Assembly: GCA_003149635.1 (NCBI GenBank)
Contig: QCWI01000012.1
Span: 1 to 64,000 of the forward strand
DNA length: 64,000 nucleotides
Direction of reading: 5' to 3'
Origin: Fluviicola sp. XM-24bin1
Lineage (GTDB): Bacteria; Bacteroidota; Bacteroidia; Flavobacteriales_D; Crocinitomicaceae
A model generated the notes under the pieces. That model saw only the letters and a program-made list of their open reading frames with translations. It searched no databases and was not told the DNA's origin. Within the stretch, counting starts at the first letter, position 1, and each line of letters begins with the position of its first letter. Below, one piece after another: positions 16,318 to 27,791 of this stretch. Made by a program: the position numbers and the translations under genes.

Positions 16318-17043
16318 ATGAAAATCGTATCATTTCTCATCATCACATTTGTCCTAATCGGATGTGCCTCTGAAACCAAAGAAGCTGCTATATCATTGGG
16401 TCAAAGCAAACCAATATTGAAAGAAGGCAATTACAACGTTGCATTTCTCATCACGGATGGCACCTACAATACCGAGTTTACAGCTCCATGGGACATCTAC
16501 GATCATGTTCGATTCCGAAAAGTGGAAAAAGGAATGAATTTGTTTACTGTTTCCAATACAAATGACACCATTACAACCTTCGAAGGCCTGAAAATCACGC
16601 CGGATTACAACTTTTTGAAGGATCAGATTCCACACATTGATATCCTCGTGATTCCAAGTGCAGAACATCATTTGGATTCCGATTTGGAAGATGAAAAGCT
16701 GGTAGCGTTCGTGAAAAACACCTCTGAAAAAGCAACTTGGGTAACCTCTCATTGCGATGGCGCCTTTGTGCTCGCCAAAACGGGATTATTAGACGGAGTT
16801 CATTGCACCACTTTCCCTGCCGATATTCAAGCAATGCGAGACATGTTCGATAAGCCCATCGTTGAGGATAGCGTGCTGTTCGTGCACGATGGAAAATTCA
16901 TTACTTCTGTGGGAGGAGCGAAAAGTTTCGAAGCATCACTTTATTTGTGTGAATTACTCTACGGGAAGAAAAACGCTGAAGATTTGGCCGAAGGACTCGT
17001 AATCGACTGGAAACTAGAAGCGCTGCCTTACAGTGCTTGGTGA
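16318..17043 (+). CDS. DJ-1/PfpI-family lipoprotein
   Basis: A 241-residue lipoprotein (MKIVSFLIITFVLIGC, lipobox LIGC) with a class I glutamine-amidotransferase-like DJ-1/PfpI domain. The reactive Cys is in WVTSHCDGA (C146), at the nucleophile elbow. The N-terminal strand NVAFLITDGTYNTEFTAPWD carries the conserved Glu. Related proteins act as glyoxalases, chaperones or isonitrile hydratases; an exported lipid-anchored form is uncommon. A ~220 bp repeat follows its stop codon. Confidence 0.88.
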   Translation: MKIVSFLIITFVLIGCASETKEAAISLGQSKPILKEGNYNVAFLITDGTYNTEFTAPWDIYDHVRFRKVEKGMNLFTVSNTNDTITTFEGLKITPDYNFLKDQIPHIDILVIPSAEHHLDSDLEDEKLVAFVKNTSEKATWVTSHCDGAFVLAKTGLLDGVHCTTFPADIQAMRDMFDKPIVEDSVLFVHDGKFITSVGGAKSFEASLYLCELLYGKKNAEDLAEGLVIDWKLEALPYSAW

Positions 17044-17407: not shown

Positions 17408-20400
17408 ATGAAGACGACTCGACTCATATTTTTGCTAGTATTTCTAGCACTATTGCCGCTTTCTTCGAATGCGCAAAATCCTTCCATCGCAAGGCAATGG
17501 AACAATCTTATCCTTGAAGCCATTCGAAACGATTTCGCACGGCCAACGGTTCATGCCCGAAACCTTTATCATCACTCTATTATTTGTTATGATGGTTGGG
17601 CGGCCTACGACCCGTCACGATCTCGCTTCTTTCTGGGGCAAACGCATTACGGGTACACCTGCGCTTTTGATACCATCATCATTCCTGGAAATGTCCAGCA
17701 AGCAAGAATTGAAACGATTTCCTATGCTTCGTATCGCTTCCTCGAAAACCGCTATTCTGGATCACCCGATTTTGCGGCAACGATGGCATTGGCGAACCAA
17801 CTCATGAACAGTTTTGGTTTGGATCCTACATACATCTCTACTGATTACGTCAACGAAGGTGCACCGGCTCTTGGAAATTATCTCGCCGAGCAAATCCAAC
17901 TTTATGGATTAACAGACGGATCCAACGAAGCCAACGAATTCGAAAATCAATTTTATCAGCAATTGAATCCGCCGCTGGAAATGTCCACGGCAGGAAACCC
18001 AGATATTCAAGATCCCAACCATTGGCAACCTCTGTCACTTGACATTTTAATTGATCAATCCGGGAATCTCATCACAGAGACCCAACCGCACTTATCACCA
18101 GAATGGGGCGAAGTTTATCCCTTCGCACTGGACACTAATGATCGCTCAACGCTATCGCGTGATGGAATGACTTTCAAGGTGTATTTCGATACCATGCAGC
18201 CTGCTATTTTGAATGTAGCCGATTCTTCCGATTGGGATTCCTTCTACAAATGGAATCATTCATTGGTAAGTGTTTGGCAATCACATTTGGATCCAAATGA
18301 CGGCGTAATGTGGGACATTTCTCCAGCATCCATCGGAAACAATTTATGGTATCCCGATCCGAATGATTCAACGGCGTACCCATTGTTTTACGATTTGGTA
18401 AACGGAGGCGATCCGGGTGTGGGGCATGCGATTAACCCAGTAACGGGAATGCCTTACACACCGCAAATTGTTCCGAGAGCGGATTACGCACGTGTTTTGG
18501 CGGAGTTCTGGGCGGATGGGATTGATTCCGAAACACCTCCGGGACATTGGTTTGAGATTTATCATTACGTGACCGATCAACCAACGTTTGTACGTCAATG
18601 GAAAGGCGTTGGCCCAGTTTTAGACCCGTTGGAATATGATGTCAAGGCGCAACTAACGTTAGGAGGGACGGTTCATGACGCAGCCATTGCCGCTTGGAGT
18701 TTGAAAGGGTATTATGATTATTTGCGTCCAGTTTCGGCGATTCGATACATGGCAGATCAAGGGCAAAGTTCGGATACGAATGAATTGAGCTACCATCCAA
18801 ATGGAATTCCGTTAATGCCCGGATTCATCGAAGTGGTGCAAGTAGGAGATACGCTCGCAGGACAGTGGAACGAACACGTTGGTAAAATCAAATTGTTTAC
18901 ATGGAAAGGCCATGCCTATATCAATGATCCACTCGTGGATATTGCTGGAGTAGGATGGATTTTAGCCGAAGAATGGTGGCCATATCAGCGTCCGACCTTC
19001 GTAACGCCTCCGTTCGCAGGATTTGTTTCTGGTCACTCAACATTCTCACGTGCAGCGGCACACACGATGGAGTTTATGACGGGGTCAGCATACTTCCCCG
19101 GAGGAATGGGAGAATTTATTGCTCCATTAAACGAGTTCTTGCAATTTGAAGAAGGCCCGAGCGATACCATTCGTTTGCAGTGGGCTACATATATGGACGC
19201 TTCAGATCAATGTAGTTTGTCTAGAATTTGGGGAGGAATCCACCCACCAATTGATGATATTCCAGGTCGAATGATTGGAGATGTCATTGGCCCGCAAGCA
19301 TCACTTCTCGCGGACTCTATCTTCTCCATCAATGAAGCAGCACTCACATTTGCCACTACCACGGACAGTTTGATCACTCAAGTGGATATGGGTGGAACAT
19401 TCAATTTGAACTTTGGATTTAGCGTTCCAATGGATACTTCCATAGTACCCAACCTGACTTTGTTCACAGGAACATTGTCCACTGCGGTAGCTCAAAATTA
19501 TTACTACTGGATCGATTCTACAGAATTGGTTATCGTAATGGATGCGCTTACGAGTTCCATTGAGATTTGGGATGCAGATATCAAACTCAACAACTTGATG
19601 ACAGGCACGGCAATTAGTCTGCAAGAGTACACTTTCAAAAATCTCTTCTTGGTAGATACGAGAAGTCCACTTGTGAGCAGTTACCAGAGCAATCATATGG
19701 TATTAAACGACGCAAGCACAGCACAAGCATTATCCATCAGTTTGATTTTTGACGAGCCATGCGATACATCCATCGCACCGACGATTCAGTTCAGCGGAAC
19801 CAATTATTTGAATCCGACATTGACGCTTCAAGGAGGAAATTCCATGTGGCAAAACGATACAACGTATGTGGCACTTTTCGATATCGTCGATTTTAACGAA
19901 ACGGTCGATCTGATTACCATGAGTGTTCTCACTGGAACCGATAAGCAAGGAAACCCAATGGACTCGGTCGGATTGGCGGCAACATTTGAGATCGACACCG
20001 AAAACCCGACGATCATCTCGGCAATTTCTACAGAAACACTAATTAGTCAAGCGGATTTGGCCAGTCCTCAGTTCAATGTCGACGTTACCTTCTCCGAGAA
20101 AATGGATACTACACTTATTCCATTGATGACCTTCATGGATCAAGGAGTTCCTTACACATCCCTCACGCAGAATACGACGCAGACCATTTGGTTGGATGAA
20201 TTCACTGCACGCGCTGAGTTCTTTGTTTTCACGAACACGAATGACTTGATTCCATTAGACTTAGAAGTTTCCAATGTTACTGACGACAAATCAAACTTAT
20301 TGGCCGATTCGCTCGCAACAAATGTTCTTTGGAGTGATATGAAATCTCCAGAAGTAATTAGCCGTGTGGCGAACAAACCGATCATCAGTGATAGCGTTGT

Positions 20401-21268
20401 GGGATCTATGGAATACTACGTCGATGTTACGTTCAGCGAGGCAATGGACACCATGATCGTTCCTTTTGTTTCTCTGAATGCCGCCGTTTCTATTGCCAGT
20501 GAAGTACAGTACAATGTTCCAGCAAGTGCCTACCTAGATTCGTTTACGTATCGTGCCTATTTCCAAGTAATCGATTTGGGAACTGAGGTTGATCCGGTGA
20601 ATATCACCGTAGATTTCGGACAAGATTTTGCAGGAAACGGACAAATTCAAGACGACTTCCAAAACTTCACCACATTGGATACCAAAAACCCTAGTGTGAT
20701 CAGCTTAACCGCGAACGATTACATTTTGGATGCTTGGGGTCAGAATTTCGATGTTCTTGCTATTTACGACGAGCCGATGCGAACAGACTATTATCCGGAA
20801 TTGTCTTTCTCACCGATGGTGCCTATTCCACTTCCAAAAGTTGACTCGGCATGGTTGAATAGTACATCGTACGAATTGTATTATGAATTGCTCGGAGTTC
20901 CAATTCAAACAACGATTTTCGATGTCACATTGACGAATGGAGTTGATATGGCAGGAAACCTTCAAAACCCTTTGAATTCGTCTTCCTTCTTCCAATTGGA
21001 TCCACTTCTAGGTATTGAGCATCTGGAAAACGGTCAAGCGATCATTTACCCAACAGTGATTGGGAACGGAGAAAGCCTAACTATATTAAATCTTCCCGAA
21101 GAACAAAGCGAGTATGAATTCAATATTGTGAATACGCTCGGTCAAGTAGTAGATCAGATTACCTTCTACAAAGATGGTTCAAAATGGGTATCCACACCAA
21201 TGAACCTTGCTACAGGAATGTATTACCTGAATTCGGAGCAAGTACAATTCAAAATCATGGTCAAATGA
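17408..21268 (+). CDS. Vanadium haloperoxidase-like (PAP2) T9SS protein
   Basis: A 1286-residue secreted protein. Signal peptide MKTTRLIFLLVFLALLPL...NAQ. The first ~640 residues are a vanadium-dependent haloperoxidase/PAP2 phosphatase domain with all three anion-binding motifs in order: KGYYDYLRP (R near 440), SGHSTFS (near 541) and SRIWGGIHPPIDD (near 604). Four to five Ig-like repeats follow, each with a VTFSEAMDT-type motif (for example near 20455). A C-terminal T9SS type A sorting domain ends LATGMYYLNSEQVQFKIMVK. VHPO-fold enzymes oxidise halides or cleave phosphate esters; the sequence alone does not decide between them. Its stop overlaps the next gene by four bases (ATGA), so the two secreted proteins are coupled. 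Confidence 0.9.
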   Translation: MKTTRLIFLLVFLALLPLSSNAQNPSIARQWNNLILEAIRNDFARPTVHARNLYHHSIICYDGWAAYDPSRSRFFLGQTHYGYTCAFDTIIIPGNVQQARIETISYASYRFLENRYSGSPDFAATMALANQLMNSFGLDPTYISTDYVNEGAPALGNYLAEQIQLYGLTDGSNEANEFENQFYQQLNPPLEMSTAGNPDIQDPNHWQPLSLDILIDQSGNLITETQPHLSPEWGEVYPFALDTNDRSTLSRDGMTFKVYFDTMQPAILNVADSSDWDSFYKWNHSLVSVWQSHLDPNDGVMWDISPASIGNNLWYPDPNDSTAYPLFYDLVNGGDPGVGHAINPVTGMPYTPQIVPRADYARVLAEFWADGIDSETPPGHWFEIYHYVTDQPTFVRQWKGVGPVLDPLEYDVKAQLTLGGTVHDAAIAAWSLKGYYDYLRPVSAIRYMADQGQSSDTNELSYHPNGIPLMPGFIEVVQVGDTLAGQWNEHVGKIKLFTWKGHAYINDPLVDIAGVGWILAEEWWPYQRPTFVTPPFAGFVSGHSTFSRAAAHTMEFMTGSAYFPGGMGEFIAPLNEFLQFEEGPSDTIRLQWATYMDASDQCSLSRIWGGIHPPIDDIPGRMIGDVIGPQASLLADSIFSINEAALTFATTTDSLITQVDMGGTFNLNFGFSVPMDTSIVPNLTLFTGTLSTAVAQNYYYWIDSTELVIVMDALTSSIEIWDADIKLNNLMTGTAISLQEYTFKNLFLVDTRSPLVSSYQSNHMVLNDASTAQALSISLIFDEPCDTSIAPTIQFSGTNYLNPTLTLQGGNSMWQNDTTYVALFDIVDFNETVDLITMSVLTGTDKQGNPMDSVGLAATFEIDTENPTIISAISTETLISQADLASPQFNVDVTFSEKMDTTLIPLMTFMDQGVPYTSLTQNTTQTIWLDEFTARAEFFVFTNTNDLIPLDLEVSNVTDDKSNLLADSLATNVLWSDMKSPEVISRVANKPIISDSVVGSMEYYVDVTFSEAMDTMIVPFVSLNAAVSIASEVQYNVPASAYLDSFTYRAYFQVIDLGTEVDPVNITVDFGQDFAGNGQIQDDFQNFTTLDTKNPSVISLTANDYILDAWGQNFDVLAIYDEPMRTDYYPELSFSPMVPIPLPKVDSAWLNSTSYELYYELLGVPIQTTIFDVTLTNGVDMAGNLQNPLNSSSFFQLDPLLGIEHLENGQAIIYPTVIGNGESLTILNLPEEQSEYEFNIVNTLGQVVDQITFYKDGSKWVSTPMNLATGMYYLNSEQVQFKIMVK

Positions 21269-23673
21269 GATGGATTGCGGCATTTTGTTTGTTGTTGCCT
21301 TTTGCACTATCAGCGCAAACCTTCACGGATGTTGCCGCTGCGCAGAACGTAACAGCTGTGCAGTACGCTCCGCACCATTATGCCAATGGAATGTCGTTTT
21401 ACGATTTTGATGAAGATGGCTGGGACGATCTCACCTACCCGATGAGCAATGATTCCATTGCTTTTTACCGAAATGTGAACGGGAACTTTGTCAAAATTCC
21501 ATCCATGATTTATGCACCTGGAATGGTGCGCCAAATGTGTTGGGTAGATTACGATGACGATGGCGATTTGGACTTCTGTATCAGCTTCGACGATATTGGG
21601 ATTCGATTGTATCAAAACGACGGTTCATTCAACTTTACTGACGTCACAACGGCCGTCAATCTTGTAGACACACCTTTCACAGGATATGGATTCTCTTTTG
21701 CAGATCCAGATGCGGATGGCGATTTGGATTTGTACGTAGCCATATATGAATCGACTGCAAGTACGGCCTCTCCTCATCCGAATTTGTTTTTCGAAAACCT
21801 AGGCAACGGAACCTTTCAGGAAGCGGCTTCTGCTTGGGGAATTGATGACGGAACAAACACTTCTTTTCAGCCGGTTTGGTTCGATTTCGATAATGATTTG
21901 GATCTGGATTTGCACGTGATTAATGATAGACCGGCGCACGTGGATGCTTTTTACGTCAACAATGGATCTACAGTGCTACCGAACCAAGCAAGTTCATTGG
22001 GAATTCTGAACCAATGGCAAAGTCCAATGAGTTTGAGTGTCGCGGATTACGATAACGATGGATACCAAGACATCTTCAAAACGGATATCGCAAGTGGCTT
22101 ACCTTACAACGGTGTTTACGATTATTACAAACTCTTCCGGAATCAAAATGGGAGCTTCTTTCAGAATGTCGCTGGAATCATGGGATTGGAAACCATCAAC
22201 TTTGGTTGGGGATCCGTTTGGATAGATTACAACAACGATTGTTACGAAGATTTGTACATTGCTACAGGTGAAATCGATTCCTTGCTTGCTTTGAAAACAT
22301 CGTTGCTCTATCGCAATAATGGAGGAAATGGATTTGTAGATGAAACGGATTCTATCTTATCCAATGTTCACAACGTTGCTTACTGTCCCGTGAAAGGCGA
22401 TATCGATAATGATGGATTTTACGATCTGGTGGTTGTGAATCACGGAATTCCACCGAGTGTGCTCCATAACAGCGGAAATAAAAATCATTTCATCAAGGTC
22501 ACTCCAGTTGGAATTCAATCGAACAAACAAGCCATTGGAACTGTTTTCAAAGTCTATGCCGGAGGAATTTGTCAAACGCAGACCGTATTCTGTGGAAGTG
22601 ATTTGTGTGCACAACATTCCCAACATAAAATTTTCGGTACGGGCCCTGCCGTGATGGTCGATTCGCTTGTCGCTTATTTCCCTAGTGGTATAGTTACGAA
22701 AATGTACAATTTGCCTGTGGACACGAATTACGTTGTTGAGGAAAAAGCAACGATTAATGTGGATTTCATTCAGGGCCCAGGAGGATTGACCGTTTGTGAC
22801 GGAGATTCGGCGCAAGTTGGAATGTCTGGATATTACAATTATGAATGGAATACCGGAGATACGACATCGCATATTACGGTTACTTCAACGGGAACCTATT
22901 ACTTCGAGGCGGAAAATGCCTCGGGCGACTCCATCTTTGTCTCCGCCCAGGAATTTATTTATTTCGAACCGCCCATTGGAGCCATTTCCATCGTAACTCA
23001 GCCTCCTTGTGGTAACGACAGCGCAGGAGTAATTCAATTACTTCCAACGCAAGCACAACTCGTCGATTACATTACGTGGTCTAATGGAGATATCGGAACC
23101 ACCATTGATTCTTTAGCACCGGGAATGTACACTTATACTATCGTTTCTTACAACGGTTGTCTGAGCAGTGATTCCATTGAAATCGTCGCGACACCAGAAT
23201 TTAGTGTGCAGCCGTTCACGACTTCGGAAACCGATCAGTCTTTAGGTTCTGTCACCTTCAATATTTGGGGTGGTACGGCACCATTTGAATTCTATATGGA
23301 TACCGTTCAGGTAGGACAAACGATCAATAATTTAGCCGCTGGTACTTACGAAGTAACCATAATTGATGCTGCCGGGTGCGAGGTAGATGTCATCTTTATA
23401 ATCAACGATGAAACCACAACCGGAATCGGTCAAATTGAGGTCACCTCACTGAAGACATTTTTCTCTGACGGAGCATGCTTCGTATGTGCTGACAATGCCT
23501 TGACGGGAAGTGAAATTACCGTTATCGACATGAACGGTAAAGAAGTTCTGAATTGGACGTGGACAGAAAACGATCCGTGTTCACAACAATCCGCAAATCT
23601 TTCTGAAGGGTTTTATCAAGTGCGTATTCTACATGGAGGCGTGACTTCAGTGAAGAATTTGGTGGTACGGTAG
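21265..23673 (+). CDS. CRTAC1/UnbV-like FG-GAP repeat T9SS protein
   Basis: An 802-residue secreted protein starting MRWIAAFCLLLPFALSAQ at 21265; this start gives a clean signal peptide and an ATGA overlap with the preceding gene. At least seven FG-GAP/VCBS Ca-binding loops follow (DYDDDGDLDF, DPDADGDLDL, DYDNDGYQD, DIDNDGFYD and others), forming a beta-propeller over about residues 25-420. An ASPIC/UnbV-like region (NHFIKVTPVG, then QHSQHKIFGTG) comes next, then two SprB-like Ig segments and a T9SS sorting domain ending SEGFYQVRILHGG...NLVVR. Such proteins are surface-displayed ligand- or partner-binding scaffolds. Co-expression with the haloperoxidase-like enzyme suggests they act together outside the cell. 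Confidence 0.9.
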   Translation: MRWIAAFCLLLPFALSAQTFTDVAAAQNVTAVQYAPHHYANGMSFYDFDEDGWDDLTYPMSNDSIAFYRNVNGNFVKIPSMIYAPGMVRQMCWVDYDDDGDLDFCISFDDIGIRLYQNDGSFNFTDVTTAVNLVDTPFTGYGFSFADPDADGDLDLYVAIYESTASTASPHPNLFFENLGNGTFQEAASAWGIDDGTNTSFQPVWFDFDNDLDLDLHVINDRPAHVDAFYVNNGSTVLPNQASSLGILNQWQSPMSLSVADYDNDGYQDIFKTDIASGLPYNGVYDYYKLFRNQNGSFFQNVAGIMGLETINFGWGSVWIDYNNDCYEDLYIATGEIDSLLALKTSLLYRNNGGNGFVDETDSILSNVHNVAYCPVKGDIDNDGFYDLVVVNHGIPPSVLHNSGNKNHFIKVTPVGIQSNKQAIGTVFKVYAGGICQTQTVFCGSDLCAQHSQHKIFGTGPAVMVDSLVAYFPSGIVTKMYNLPVDTNYVVEEKATINVDFIQGPGGLTVCDGDSAQVGMSGYYNYEWNTGDTTSHITVTSTGTYYFEAENASGDSIFVSAQEFIYFEPPIGAISIVTQPPCGNDSAGVIQLLPTQAQLVDYITWSNGDIGTTIDSLAPGMYTYTIVSYNGCLSSDSIEIVATPEFSVQPFTTSETDQSLGSVTFNIWGGTAPFEFYMDTVQVGQTINNLAAGTYEVTIIDAAGCEVDVIFIINDETTTGIGQIEVTSLKTFFSDGACFVCADNALTGSEITVIDMNGKEVLNWTWTENDPCSQQSANLSEGFYQVRILHGGVTSVKNLVVR

Positions 23674-23774: not shown

Positions 23775-25826
23775 TTACATAGACTGATCAATCTTCCGCA
23801 CCATCGTTAAAATGGTCGCCATTCCACACGTTTCTCCCGTTTCATCGTAGATATCCACTAAGAACTTCACGATTCCTTTTGCGATGTCGTCTTCGGAACG
23901 TTTTTCCTGATCAATTTTCTCTTTCACGGTAAAGCGAACACCGATGGTTGCTCCTGGATACACCGGTTTGGTGAAACGAGCTTCATCAATACCGTAATTC
24001 AATAGTACAGGGCCTTTCTTCGGATCAACGAACAATCCTGCCGCTTTCGAAAGCAAGAAATATCCGTGTGCCACACGACGCTCAAAGATGGTTCCATCCA
24101 ATGACGTTTCATCCATGTGTGCATAGAAATTATCTCCTGAAACGTTTGCAAAATTCACGATATCCGCTTCTGTTACGGTGTGCTTGTGCGTGAATACAGT
24201 TTCACCAACCACTAACTCTTCAAAGTGCTTGCGGAACACATGCGGATTTGCCTCTGGCATAGCTGCCCCGACTTGGAATTGTTGCGTGATCTCGGTGATC
24301 GTTGTTGGGTGACCTTGAATTGCGGTACGTTGCAAGTAATGTAAAATTCCGCGTTTTCCTCCCATTTCTTCACCGCCTCCGGCACGTCCAGGCCCACCAT
24401 GTGTTAGCAATGGCATTGGAGAACCGTGACCAGTACTTTCTTTCGCACAATCTTTATTGAGAACCAAAATACGTCCGTGCATGCTTGCCGCACCTACCAC
24501 GTATTCGCGTGCTTCTTTGTCGTCTGGTGTTACAATGGAAGAAACCAAAGATCCTTTACCCATACGAGCCAATTCAATCGCCTCGTCCATATTTTTGTAC
24601 GGCATAATCGTCGATACCGGCCCAAACGCCTCTACGTTGTGAACGTCTACTTTGTTGAATGGATCGCTATTTCTGAACAAGATCGGCGAGAAGAATGCCC
24701 CTTTGTCTTTATCGGCTCCAACAACTTCAAAATTGTCCAAATCACCGAAGACCATCTCCTGCGATTTCGCCAACAATTCTACATTTTCACGAACGCGTTC
24801 TACCTGAGTACGTGTCGCCAAAGCTCCCATGCGAACTCCTTCTTGAGACGGATCACCGATGACAGTTGTGCTCAATCGTTTAGAAATTGCCGCTTGAACA
24901 TCTTCCAATAAATTGTCAGGTACAATGATTCGACGTACTGCAGTACACTTCTGCCCTGCTTTCACTGTAATTTCTTTCGTTACTTCTTTCAAGAACAAGG
25001 CAAATTCTTCCGTATCAGGAGTTGCTTTTTCACCCAAAACCGATGCATTCAATGAGTCTGCCTCAAGGTTGAAGGCGACACTTCTTTCCGTAATGTGCGG
25101 TAATCCTTTCAAGACTTTCCCAGTATGTGCACTTCCTGTGAAGGTCACTGTATCTTCCAAGTCTACATGATCGATAATGCCTCGACCCAATCCACATACC
25201 AACTGCAACGATCCTTCCGGAAGAATTCCAGACGCGATGATATCGCGAACCATAACTTCGGTCAAGTAACACGTGTATTCCGACGGCTTTACCACTGCTG
25301 GTACTCCTGCCATCAAGTTCACCGCAATTTTCTCCAACATTCCCCAAATCGGGAAGTTAAAGGCGTTGATATGAACTGCTACACCTTGTTTTGGCGTCAT
25401 AATGTGATGCCCGATAAAGGTTCCTTCCTTGGAAAGTGGCGCCATGGTTCCATCCACGTAGTATGGCAAATCTGGGAATTGACGACGCAATGAAGCATTC
25501 GCGAACAAGTTTCCAATTCCTCCTTCAATATCGATCCAAGAATCCACTTTCGTAGCTCCTGTCCATGAGCTTACTTCGTAATATTTCTTCTTCAACGTGA
25601 GCAAGTGCAAGGCCAATGCCTTCAACATACGTCCTCTTTCTTGGAACGTCATCTTGCGCAATTGCGCTCCACCTGTTCTTCTACCATATTCTAAAATGGC
25701 TGCGTAATCAAACCCGGCGCTTGACGTTTCACCGAACTGCTCTCCTGTGATCGCGTTGTAGAGTTTCGTTTCAACTCCCTCACCATCAGTCCATTCTCCT
25801 AAAATATAGCTTTGATATCGTTGCAT
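23775..25826 (-). CDS. paaZ: PaaZ-type aldehyde dehydrogenase / enoyl-CoA hydratase
   Basis: A 683-residue two-domain enzyme. Residues 1-520 are an aldehyde dehydrogenase with active-site Cys in AGQKCTAVRR, general-base Glu in FNLEADS and NAD motif TFTGSAHTGK. Residues 540-683 are a MaoC-type hot-dog hydratase with ANVSGDNFYAHMDE and the helix FERRVAHGYFLLSKAAG. In phenylacetate degradation this protein opens the oxepin-CoA ring and oxidises the resulting aldehyde. No paaABCDE, paaG, paaH or paaK lies nearby. It could serve phenylacetate breakdown encoded elsewhere or detoxify stray oxepin-CoA; an unrelated MaoC-ALDH use cannot be excluded. Confidence 0.93.
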   Translation of the reverse strand: MQRYQSYILGEWTDGEGVETKLYNAITGEQFGETSSAGFDYAAILEYGRRTGGAQLRKMTFQERGRMLKALALHLLTLKKKYYEVSSWTGATKVDSWIDIEGGIGNLFANASLRRQFPDLPYYVDGTMAPLSKEGTFIGHHIMTPKQGVAVHINAFNFPIWGMLEKIAVNLMAGVPAVVKPSEYTCYLTEVMVRDIIASGILPEGSLQLVCGLGRGIIDHVDLEDTVTFTGSAHTGKVLKGLPHITERSVAFNLEADSLNASVLGEKATPDTEEFALFLKEVTKEITVKAGQKCTAVRRIIVPDNLLEDVQAAISKRLSTTVIGDPSQEGVRMGALATRTQVERVRENVELLAKSQEMVFGDLDNFEVVGADKDKGAFFSPILFRNSDPFNKVDVHNVEAFGPVSTIMPYKNMDEAIELARMGKGSLVSSIVTPDDKEAREYVVGAASMHGRILVLNKDCAKESTGHGSPMPLLTHGGPGRAGGGEEMGGKRGILHYLQRTAIQGHPTTITEITQQFQVGAAMPEANPHVFRKHFEELVVGETVFTHKHTVTEADIVNFANVSGDNFYAHMDETSLDGTIFERRVAHGYFLLSKAAGLFVDPKKGPVLLNYGIDEARFTKPVYPGATIGVRFTVKEKIDQEKRSEDDIAKGIVKFLVDIYDETGETCGMATILTMVRKIDQSM

Positions 25827-26310: not shown

Positions 26311-26339
26311 TTTTACCTATTTTGCACAAAACGAATACA

Positions 26340-27791
26340 TTGAAAACACTTCTTTTTACCCTACTTGCGACTATAATTCTTCCGCAATTGACTTTTGCTC
26401 AGCCTGGAATTGCATGGGAACCTGAGATCATCGTATCTGATGGCGCCGTTTACGGAAAAATTAGACCTCGAGCGGCATTAGTTGGAGACGAACCTATAGT
26501 GGTTTGCGCTGGATTCGGAGCAGAAAATATATTTATTTCCAGATGGAATGGAACTGGATTCGACACCAATCCTGTTTTGCCGACAGGCACGTCCTCCTAC
26601 GCTGCCACTTGGACAGGGCCGGATATCGCGGCGAAAGGTGATACAGTTATCGCAGTATTCAAATTGAATCCTTCAGAATCTGGAAATGTATATGTTATTC
26701 GATCTGTTGATGGTGGTCAAAATTTCTCCGATACAATTCGAGTTGGTAATTATACTGGCGGTAATCCATGGATGCCTTCCTTAGAAATCGATGACAACGG
26801 AAATCCGACAGTGGCCATTATGATCCACGACGGTCAGTGGGCCAATCCGCGTCAAGCCCTTTTCCATTCTAATGATGCAGGATTGTCATTCGGACCGGCT
26901 GAAGAAATTTCTAGTAACGTACCCGGAGAAGCGTGTGACTGCTGTCCTTCCGAGGTAGTGATTGACGGTTCACGTGAAGTACTGCTAATGCGGAACAACG
27001 ACAACAACATCCGAGAGGTATTTGGAATTCTTTCCACTGACGGAGGGACATCGTTTCCTTTCACCGAAAATGTGGATCAATTGAATTGGAACATTTCTCA
27101 ATGTCCAGCAACTGGAATGGATGGTTATTTCCTCAATGACGAATTATTTACAACCTTCTCAAGCCGAGCCGATGGAACCTACAGAGTCTATGTTTCCAGA
27201 AGTGATATCTCCAGTGGTTTAAGTATGACAGAACGCTTGAGTGTACCTGCACCAACAAATGGCGGACAGAATTATCCGACGATGTCTGGTGCGAATGATA
27301 CGATTGTAATGGCTTGGGAAGAACGCATCGGAACCAACAAGGAGATCTATTACAGTTTGAGTGTGGGAAGCAATCCGCTGAACCAATTATCTACTTTGAA
27401 ATCTCAAGCAAACGCAACAGCACTCGGCAATCAAACCAACCCGGATATTCTCTACAAGAATGGATACGTTCATCTGTTTTATCAAGATGATGCGAACGGA
27501 AATGTTGTGTATCGAAGAGGACGTGTCACGGATGTTGCAAATATTACTGAATCGAACATTCAAAATGTTGTGATTTCGCCTAATCCTTCATCGAATAATC
27601 GTGCTCGGATAACTGGAATTCGTTCGATTACATCTGTAGTGAGTCTTGACGGCAAAGAACTACGTTTCCAAACCAGTGAGTCGAAGAATCAAATCGAATT
27701 GGAGATTCTTCAAAAAGTCAACGGAGTGCACTTCATCCATTGCAAAAACGACAACGGAGACGACATCGTACTGCGTTGGATGGTTCTTTAA
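26340..27791 (+). CDS. BNR/sialidase-fold T9SS secreted protein
   Basis: A 483-residue secreted protein. I place the start at TTG 26340, giving MKTLLFTLLATIILPQLTFA; an upstream in-frame ATG would put a charged tail before the signal peptide and overlap the preceding gene. The body holds repeated sialidase/exo-alpha-type blades with Asp-box-like motifs (SVDGGQNFSDT, SNDAGLSFGP, STDGGTSFPF). It probably forms a six-bladed propeller. The C-terminus (NVVISPNPSSNNRARITGI onward) is a T9SS sorting domain. No sialidase catalytic Arg triad could be assigned by eye, so a binding role is as likely as catalysis. Its stop abuts the convergent stop of the next gene. Confidence 0.85.
   Translation: MKTLLFTLLATIILPQLTFAQPGIAWEPEIIVSDGAVYGKIRPRAALVGDEPIVVCAGFGAENIFISRWNGTGFDTNPVLPTGTSSYAATWTGPDIAAKGDTVIAVFKLNPSESGNVYVIRSVDGGQNFSDTIRVGNYTGGNPWMPSLEIDDNGNPTVAIMIHDGQWANPRQALFHSNDAGLSFGPAEEISSNVPGEACDCCPSEVVIDGSREVLLMRNNDNNIREVFGILSTDGGTSFPFTENVDQLNWNISQCPATGMDGYFLNDELFTTFSSRADGTYRVYVSRSDISSGLSMTERLSVPAPTNGGQNYPTMSGANDTIVMAWEERIGTNKEIYYSLSVGSNPLNQLSTLKSQANATALGNQTNPDILYKNGYVHLFYQDDANGNVVYRRGRVTDVANITESNIQNVVISPNPSSNNRARITGIRSITSVVSLDGKELRFQTSESKNQIELEILQKVNGVHFIHCKNDNGDDIVLRWMVL

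Follow-up and report, generated by a model that had tools for sequence, protein, structure and literature searches.

A predicted vanadium haloperoxidase and a CRTAC1-like propeller as a candidate secreted pair in Fluviicola, with recurrent pairing and fusion in other bacteria

We analyzed a 64,000-nucleotide stretch of the Fluviicola sp. XM-24bin1 genome (GCA_003149635.1), positions 1-64,000 of the forward strand of contig QCWI01000012.1, hereafter the window. It carries two overlapping genes on the + strand: open reading frame 1 (ORF1, 17408..21268, 1286 amino acids), encoding a vanadium haloperoxidase (VHPO)-type enzyme, and ORF2 (21265..23673, 802 amino acids), encoding a CRTAC1-like FG-GAP/UnbV propeller. 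We propose, with a probability of roughly 60%, that they form a secreted two-protein haloperoxidase system in which ORF1 would oxidise halide and ORF2 would be its dedicated partner. That the two work together is suggested by the finding that VHPOs and propellers of this kind are often neighbours or fused in other bacteria.

The stop codon of ORF1 and the start codon of ORF2 share the letters ATGA (21265..21268, +), a four-base overlap. The longest frame of ORF2 begins upstream at 21184; we adopted the start at 21265 because a signal-peptide-like N terminus arises from that ATG. The gene before ORF1 is also on the + strand and ends at 17043, and the gene after ORF2 (23775-25826) is on the opposite strand. 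From these positions and strands the two genes look like a two-gene unit, presumably read as one transcript. A promoter scan was uninformative (15 promoter-like sites versus 14.2 in shuffles), and a terminator scan found none.

The catalytic domain of ORF1 (17471..19324, +, residues 22-639) was delimited with a profile built here, an AlphaFold2 model and its fold matches. It contains three vanadate-site motifs, namely W430-S-L-K433-x6-R440-P441 (18695..18730, +), P534-P-F536-x4-S541-G542-H543 (PPFxxxxSGHS; 19007..19039, +) and S-R606-x5-H612-x3-D616-D617 (SRxxxxxHxxxDD; 19220..19258, +), numbered in the full protein, which is the alignment numbering plus 20. W430, K433, R440, P441, P534, F536, S541, G542, H543, R606, H612, D616 and D617 are invariant in 81/81 aligned sequences, the window included. 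Whole ORF1 matches Pfam VCPO_2nd barely above the cut-off (27.1 bits, cut-off 27); in our first alignment this family was matched by 36/36 members (E ≤0.001) and DUF6851 by 32. The model, made from window positions 17468-19342, is confident (predicted local distance difference test score 90.6, predicted template-modelling score (pTM) 0.93). Its top fold match is NapH1 (Z 30.6; 433 residues aligned, spanning model positions 4-621), followed by XhnO11 (Z 30.0), NapH3 (29.7), the Zobellia iodoperoxidase (28.0) and the Curvularia chloroperoxidase (22.1); overall, this group gives Z 21.7-30.6 over 390-437 residues, whereas acid phosphatases match only the core of the model (Z 11.6-12.7 over 189-205 residues). 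By sequence and by the modelled fold, ORF1 is a predicted VHPO-type enzyme. In one study (PMC11871015), the residue three positions before the catalytic Lys tunes halide choice in an Acaryochloris enzyme and is Trp in an Ascophyllum enzyme. The corresponding position of ORF1 is an invariant Trp, which does not settle which halide would be used.

ORF2 has seven Asp-rich, calcium-type propeller loops (21403..22425, +, residues 47-387), with the DxDxD-type loops beginning at residues 47, 95, 147, 207, 261, 321 and 379. Its match to FG-GAP_3 is above the cut-off (98.8 bits, 2.6e-28), as is that to the UnbV_ASPIC domain (22531..22731, +; PF07593, 33.0 bits and, in another scan, 29.2 bits with 8.7e-7; cut-off 23.4). 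ORF2 is thus, as predicted from these matches, a seven-loop FG-GAP/UnbV (CRTAC1-like) propeller. The initial annotation of this locus had been correct in its coordinates and in the four-base overlap of the genes; the three vanadate/phosphate-site motifs and the calcium-loop propeller that it described are likewise present.

Searching 249 genomes of the order, we matched the ORF1 domain in 121 and ORF2 in 165, and part of the loci that we classified were the better matches of this search. We classified 147 VHPO genes, with starts in the relatives' loci assigned mechanically, and placed 142 of their domains in a tree, leaving out L078, L107 and two L105 genes (duplicate contigs) and L036 (matched domain <550 residues). 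This tree and the corresponding UnbV tree were quick trees with Shimodaira-Hasegawa-like approximate likelihood ratio (SH-aLRT) support and no bootstrap. The VHPO of the window falls in a clade of 18 entries (SH-aLRT 99), 12 of which have a UnbV gene directly downstream and 6 of which could not be read by the flank rule. Among the latter, L076 has the start of a UnbV gene at the contig end, and on another contig of genome G240 a VHPO tail, identified by its 61% identity to the VHPO of L039, shares four bases with a UnbV gene; in three others the sequence stops too early downstream. In total, a UnbV gene follows in 14 of the 15 testable entries, and L036, which is paired and lies outside the tree, would bring the total to 15/16.

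The linkage rate was taken only from a set not chosen for UnbV, comprising 80 loci with 81 VHPO genes, the best 80 of at least 552 confirmed relatives; the other loci had partly been picked as fusions or as better matches. Genes were called unlinked if there was no UnbV gene within 5 kb, or within the shorter flank available (at least 2.5 kb on each side). In this set, 25 VHPO genes were fused to a UnbV propeller, 3 had a UnbV gene directly downstream, 3 directly upstream and 4 within 5 kb, and 13 of the 81 could not be judged. Altogether, 31 of the 68 testable genes were fused to or beside UnbV.

The same genome contains a second pair. At G000:C10, a gene for a 449-residue VHPO, close to the Zobellia iodoperoxidase 4CIT (E 2.9e-44), overlaps by eight bases a gene for a 538-residue protein with a UnbV domain above the cut-off. 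The subfamily of this VHPO (E <1e-100) was found in 6/249 genomes, the own genome included, and is paired in 6/6 with the matched UnbV gene, downstream and on the same strand. Of 13 more distant matches (E 5e-89 to 4e-33), five were examined, and all five were unlinked. The own genome has four UnbV genes over the cut-off. We considered chance adjacency and rejected it as unlikely, because there are so few UnbV genes, yet one lies directly downstream of each of the two VHPO genes found. Beside the second pair, a divergent gene (positions 6027-7454 of L157, G000:C10:92000-111900) encodes a further propeller, with FG-GAP_3, FAM234A/B and carrageenase propeller families above cut-off; by eye, a gene resembling it also adjoins the pair divergently in L171 and L176.

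In other bacteria the two modules occur in one polypeptide. In 34 of the 147 classified VHPO genes, profiles built here place a UnbV propeller N-terminal to the enzyme; 25 of these fusions are from the unselected set, and six further loci had been chosen because they were fusions. Pfam finds the UnbV domain in all three fusions scanned (L117 from Winogradskyella, L118 and L066), in which the enzyme part is marked by DUF6851 above cut-off. The linkers between the modules fall into five classes, of 14-15 (n=2), 35-43 (n=7), 64-73 (n=2), 103-109 (n=21) and 909-911 residues (n=2), which correspond to the five fused groups of the VHPO tree. On that tree the fused state needs five changes, five of them forced by branches with support of at least 95, and on the UnbV tree it needs six, of which five are forced. 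Repeated fusion of UnbV and VHPO modules would be the simplest reading, with the limit that the five changes may be fewer gains plus some losses, which counting cannot separate. Two modules are also supported by the predicted structure of one natural fusion, whose N-terminal part matches CRTAC1 (Z 42.0, 446 residues) and whose C-terminal part matches XhnO11 (Z 24.0). Seven more VHPO genes have FG-GAP repeats and no detected UnbV domain, with which Pfam agrees for L063, the one scanned. The longest linker class contains a second FG-GAP propeller. L064 and L066 are 2179-residue proteins made of a UnbV propeller, a second FG-GAP propeller and a VHPO, and the L066 fusion has a tail for the type IX secretion system (T9SS) above cut-off.

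Both proteins of the window have signal-peptide-like N termini, assessed by eye from the translations (ORF1, 17408..17473, +, residues 1-22; ORF2, 21265..21315, +, residues 1-17), in agreement with the earlier description. ORF2 ends in a T9SS type A sorting tail (23503..23667, +; TIGR04183, 30.5 bits, NCBIfam cut-off 23), which is slightly short of the Pfam Por_Secre_tail cut-off (26.2 versus 27). The tail of ORF1 (21044..21265, +, residues 1213-1286) is weaker. Among the VHPOs of relatives, TIGR04183 is reached in L035 (25.7), whose catalytic domain is 88% identical to that of ORF1, and in L043 (45.9); L036 fails (18.4), and L037 and L038 have no match. Among the UnbV proteins of relatives, L037 (29.7) and L041 (44.5) pass and L035 (16.4) fails.

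Taken as a working system, both proteins would be exported by Sec and then probably by type IX secretion. ORF1, to judge from its motifs and fold class, would bind vanadate and, with H2O2, oxidise halide extracellularly to a hypohalous species. As a CRTAC1-type propeller with calcium-type loops, probably made from the same transcript, ORF2 may bind the enzyme through direct contact or may anchor it on the cell surface or in the matrix. Through such binding or anchoring, the reactive product would be generated in one place.

Several observations weigh against this proposal. The T9SS tail of ORF1 scores under the NCBIfam cut-off (19.7 versus 23), so of the two sorting tails reported in the initial annotation, that of ORF2 passes this cut-off and that of ORF1 is sub-threshold. 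Algal and cyanobacterial bromoperoxidases match the ORF1 model no better than acid phosphatases do (Z 9.5-11.7, 309-325 residues); given these low scores and the high scores of the NapH type, ORF1 sits on the NapH/Zobellia/Curvularia side of the fold. In the window clade, L052 has 4.7 kb downstream without a UnbV gene. In the unselected set, 33 of the 68 testable VHPO genes are unlinked, and all 11 shorter lipoprotein-like VHPOs (L164-L170, L172-L175) are without UnbV in the stretch examined. Universal pairing of VHPO and UnbV was rejected on these two counts, and the split between 31 linked and 33 unlinked genes indicates that pairing is clade-specific: it is a property of particular VHPO clades, not of all VHPOs. 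For the unlinked VHPOs, no alternative common partner was seen by eye among the neighbours of 31 of the 33 (the two L105 genes excepted), with no family scan made. Of the four UnbV genes in this genome, two lie away from any VHPO. Finally, the natural-fusion model gave no confident mutual orientation of propeller and enzyme (pTM 0.56), and direct docking is therefore something that we infer. As a side observation, a different family of the order has VHPO paralogues in tandem, of about 1300 and about 1060 residues, with no UnbV neighbour detected (L042, L044, L045, L051, L053 and L062).

Alternatively, ORF1 may be secreted as a phosphatase or as some other enzyme of this fold without redox activity, like NapH3, with the propeller as its partner. 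VHPOs and PAP2 acid phosphatases have site residues in common, 6 of the 36 members of the first alignment have a weak Pfam PAP2 match, and NapH3, which by its PDB title catalyses a rearrangement, is among the nearest folds. The Pfam PAP2 match reaches 20.7 bits (cut-off 27.2). Acid phosphatases cover, as given above, about half as many residues of the model as the VHPOs do. NapH3 lacks the histidine of the SGH motif in the alignment, whereas ORF1 and 4CIT have it; this argument is weak, because XhnO11 (9L8X), a named halogenase, also lacks that histidine there. In the second pair of the own genome, the VHPO is closely related to an iodoperoxidase. We consider the phosphatase or non-redox alternative unlikely. 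The doubt between oxidase and phosphatase expressed in the initial annotation has been narrowed toward a VHPO by the fold comparison and is not settled.

The two genes could also encode surface proteins that are merely co-transcribed, UnbV propellers being abundant mobile modules with no specific partnership. This would fit the many UnbV/FG-GAP genes of some genomes (up to 40 first-look candidates), the UnbV paralogue that lies in a gldKLMN-looking locus (by eye) of the own genome, and the 33 unlinked genes of the unselected set. On the other side stand the own genome, in which only four UnbV genes exist and both VHPO genes found directly precede one, the adjacency in 14 of 15 testable entries of the window clade, the fusions in five linker classes, and the fact that the VHPOs involved come from two distant subfamilies and the UnbV proteins from several lineages; on balance, the absence of any specific partnership seems improbable to us. 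Much less probable still is that the propeller is the substrate, which the haloperoxidase would halogenate or cross-link and so harden the matrix. Co-secretion and a fixed pairing would fit such a role, but the fused forms would need to modify themselves. We thus retain the dedicated haloperoxidase-propeller pair as the preferred reading. The co-occurrence check in relatives that had been proposed with the initial annotation was run here, and clade adjacency, the second pair and repeated fusion favor a functional pair; of the two-part surface system suggested there, the pairing is strengthened, the role given to the propeller as substrate or surface binder keeps the status of a proposal, and the choice between oxidase and phosphatase is unsettled.

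Other features of the locus include four C-terminal repeats in ORF1 (19655..21004, +, the end of the last being approximate), with a period of 113-114 residues and starts at residues 750, 863, 977 and 1091. No Pfam family matched this region at E 0.001, so the four repeats described earlier are present and their 'Ig' label is not supported. Farther along the window, positions 26325-27791 encode one more protein that looks secreted, whose BNR-like repeats and T9SS tail each score under the cut-off; a start resembling that of this protein was seen by eye near a UnbV gene in L161. A UnbV paralogue of ORF2 (positions 10161-12584 of L156, G000:C6:163000-182900) has gldN-like genes on one side and a second gldM-like gene on the other, in what looks like a T9SS core locus, with a similar arrangement in the congener L159 (gene names by eye).

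Bacterial haloperoxidases are usually treated as single enzymes. A recurrent protein partner, if true, would change how they are expressed and assayed and where they are placed in halogen cycling, and would link the poorly understood CRTAC1/UnbV family to an enzyme. With the natural fusions, the partnership can be tested directly. More tentatively, and with less confidence than in the pair itself, CRTAC1-type propellers may be dedicated subunits of secreted haloperoxidases, with at least two VHPO subfamilies having repeatedly and independently gained one as an operon partner or fused domain. Extracellular haloperoxidase would then often be a two-module enzyme in these bacteria, and what the propeller does, whether it anchors, channels or shields, may give a clue to the role of the CRTAC1 family generally, animals included.

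Among known systems, the vanadium iodoperoxidase of Zobellia galactanivorans (PDB 4CIT/4USZ) resembles ORF1 in being a Bacteroidota VHPO (Z 27.7-28.0 over 390-393 residues) with aligned PPF-SGH and SR-H motifs. It differs in chain length (458 residues versus about 620 for the ORF1 domain), in its 20% identity over the structural alignment, and in that ORF1 carries C-terminal repeats and a weak T9SS tail. NapH1, NapH3 and XhnO11 (PDB 3W35, 8CXL and 9L8X) are the closest folds (Z 29.7-30.6), with conserved stretches of the N-terminal part aligned; they are 18-22% identical to ORF1, and NapH3 and XhnO11 are those without the SGH histidine. We know of no propeller partner for any of the three. The chloroperoxidase of Curvularia inaequalis (PDB 1VNC; Z 22.1 over 425 residues) has, as ORF1 does, a Trp three residues before the catalytic Lys; unlike ORF1 it is fungal, with 16% identity, and to our knowledge it has no propeller. 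Zobellia upregulates one iodoperoxidase on Ascophyllum, which is discussed together with algal halogenated defences (PMC9296495). For ORF2, CRTAC1 (cartilage acidic protein 1, PDB 9ETN) was the single PDB match at E ≤0.1 (E 1e-5); CRTAC1 is an animal protein, and in ORF2 the UnbV domain is followed by about 220 more residues and a T9SS tail. In some bacteria, a CRTAC1-family gene is found among hydrazine-synthase-like genes (PMC12758564), which, like the ORF1-ORF2 locus, sets such a gene beside putative redox enzyme genes; the enzyme family is another one, and the available portion of that report tells of a gene neighbourhood, not of a fusion with the CRTAC1 protein. No description of VHPO-UnbV pairing or fusion was found in the titles and abstract starts listed by searches of openly licensed papers, and the fused architecture may be listed in domain databases, which were not searched. 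Both kinds of protein, VHPOs and CRTAC1-like propellers, are known, and their recurrent pairing and fusion is, within the literature searched, the new part.

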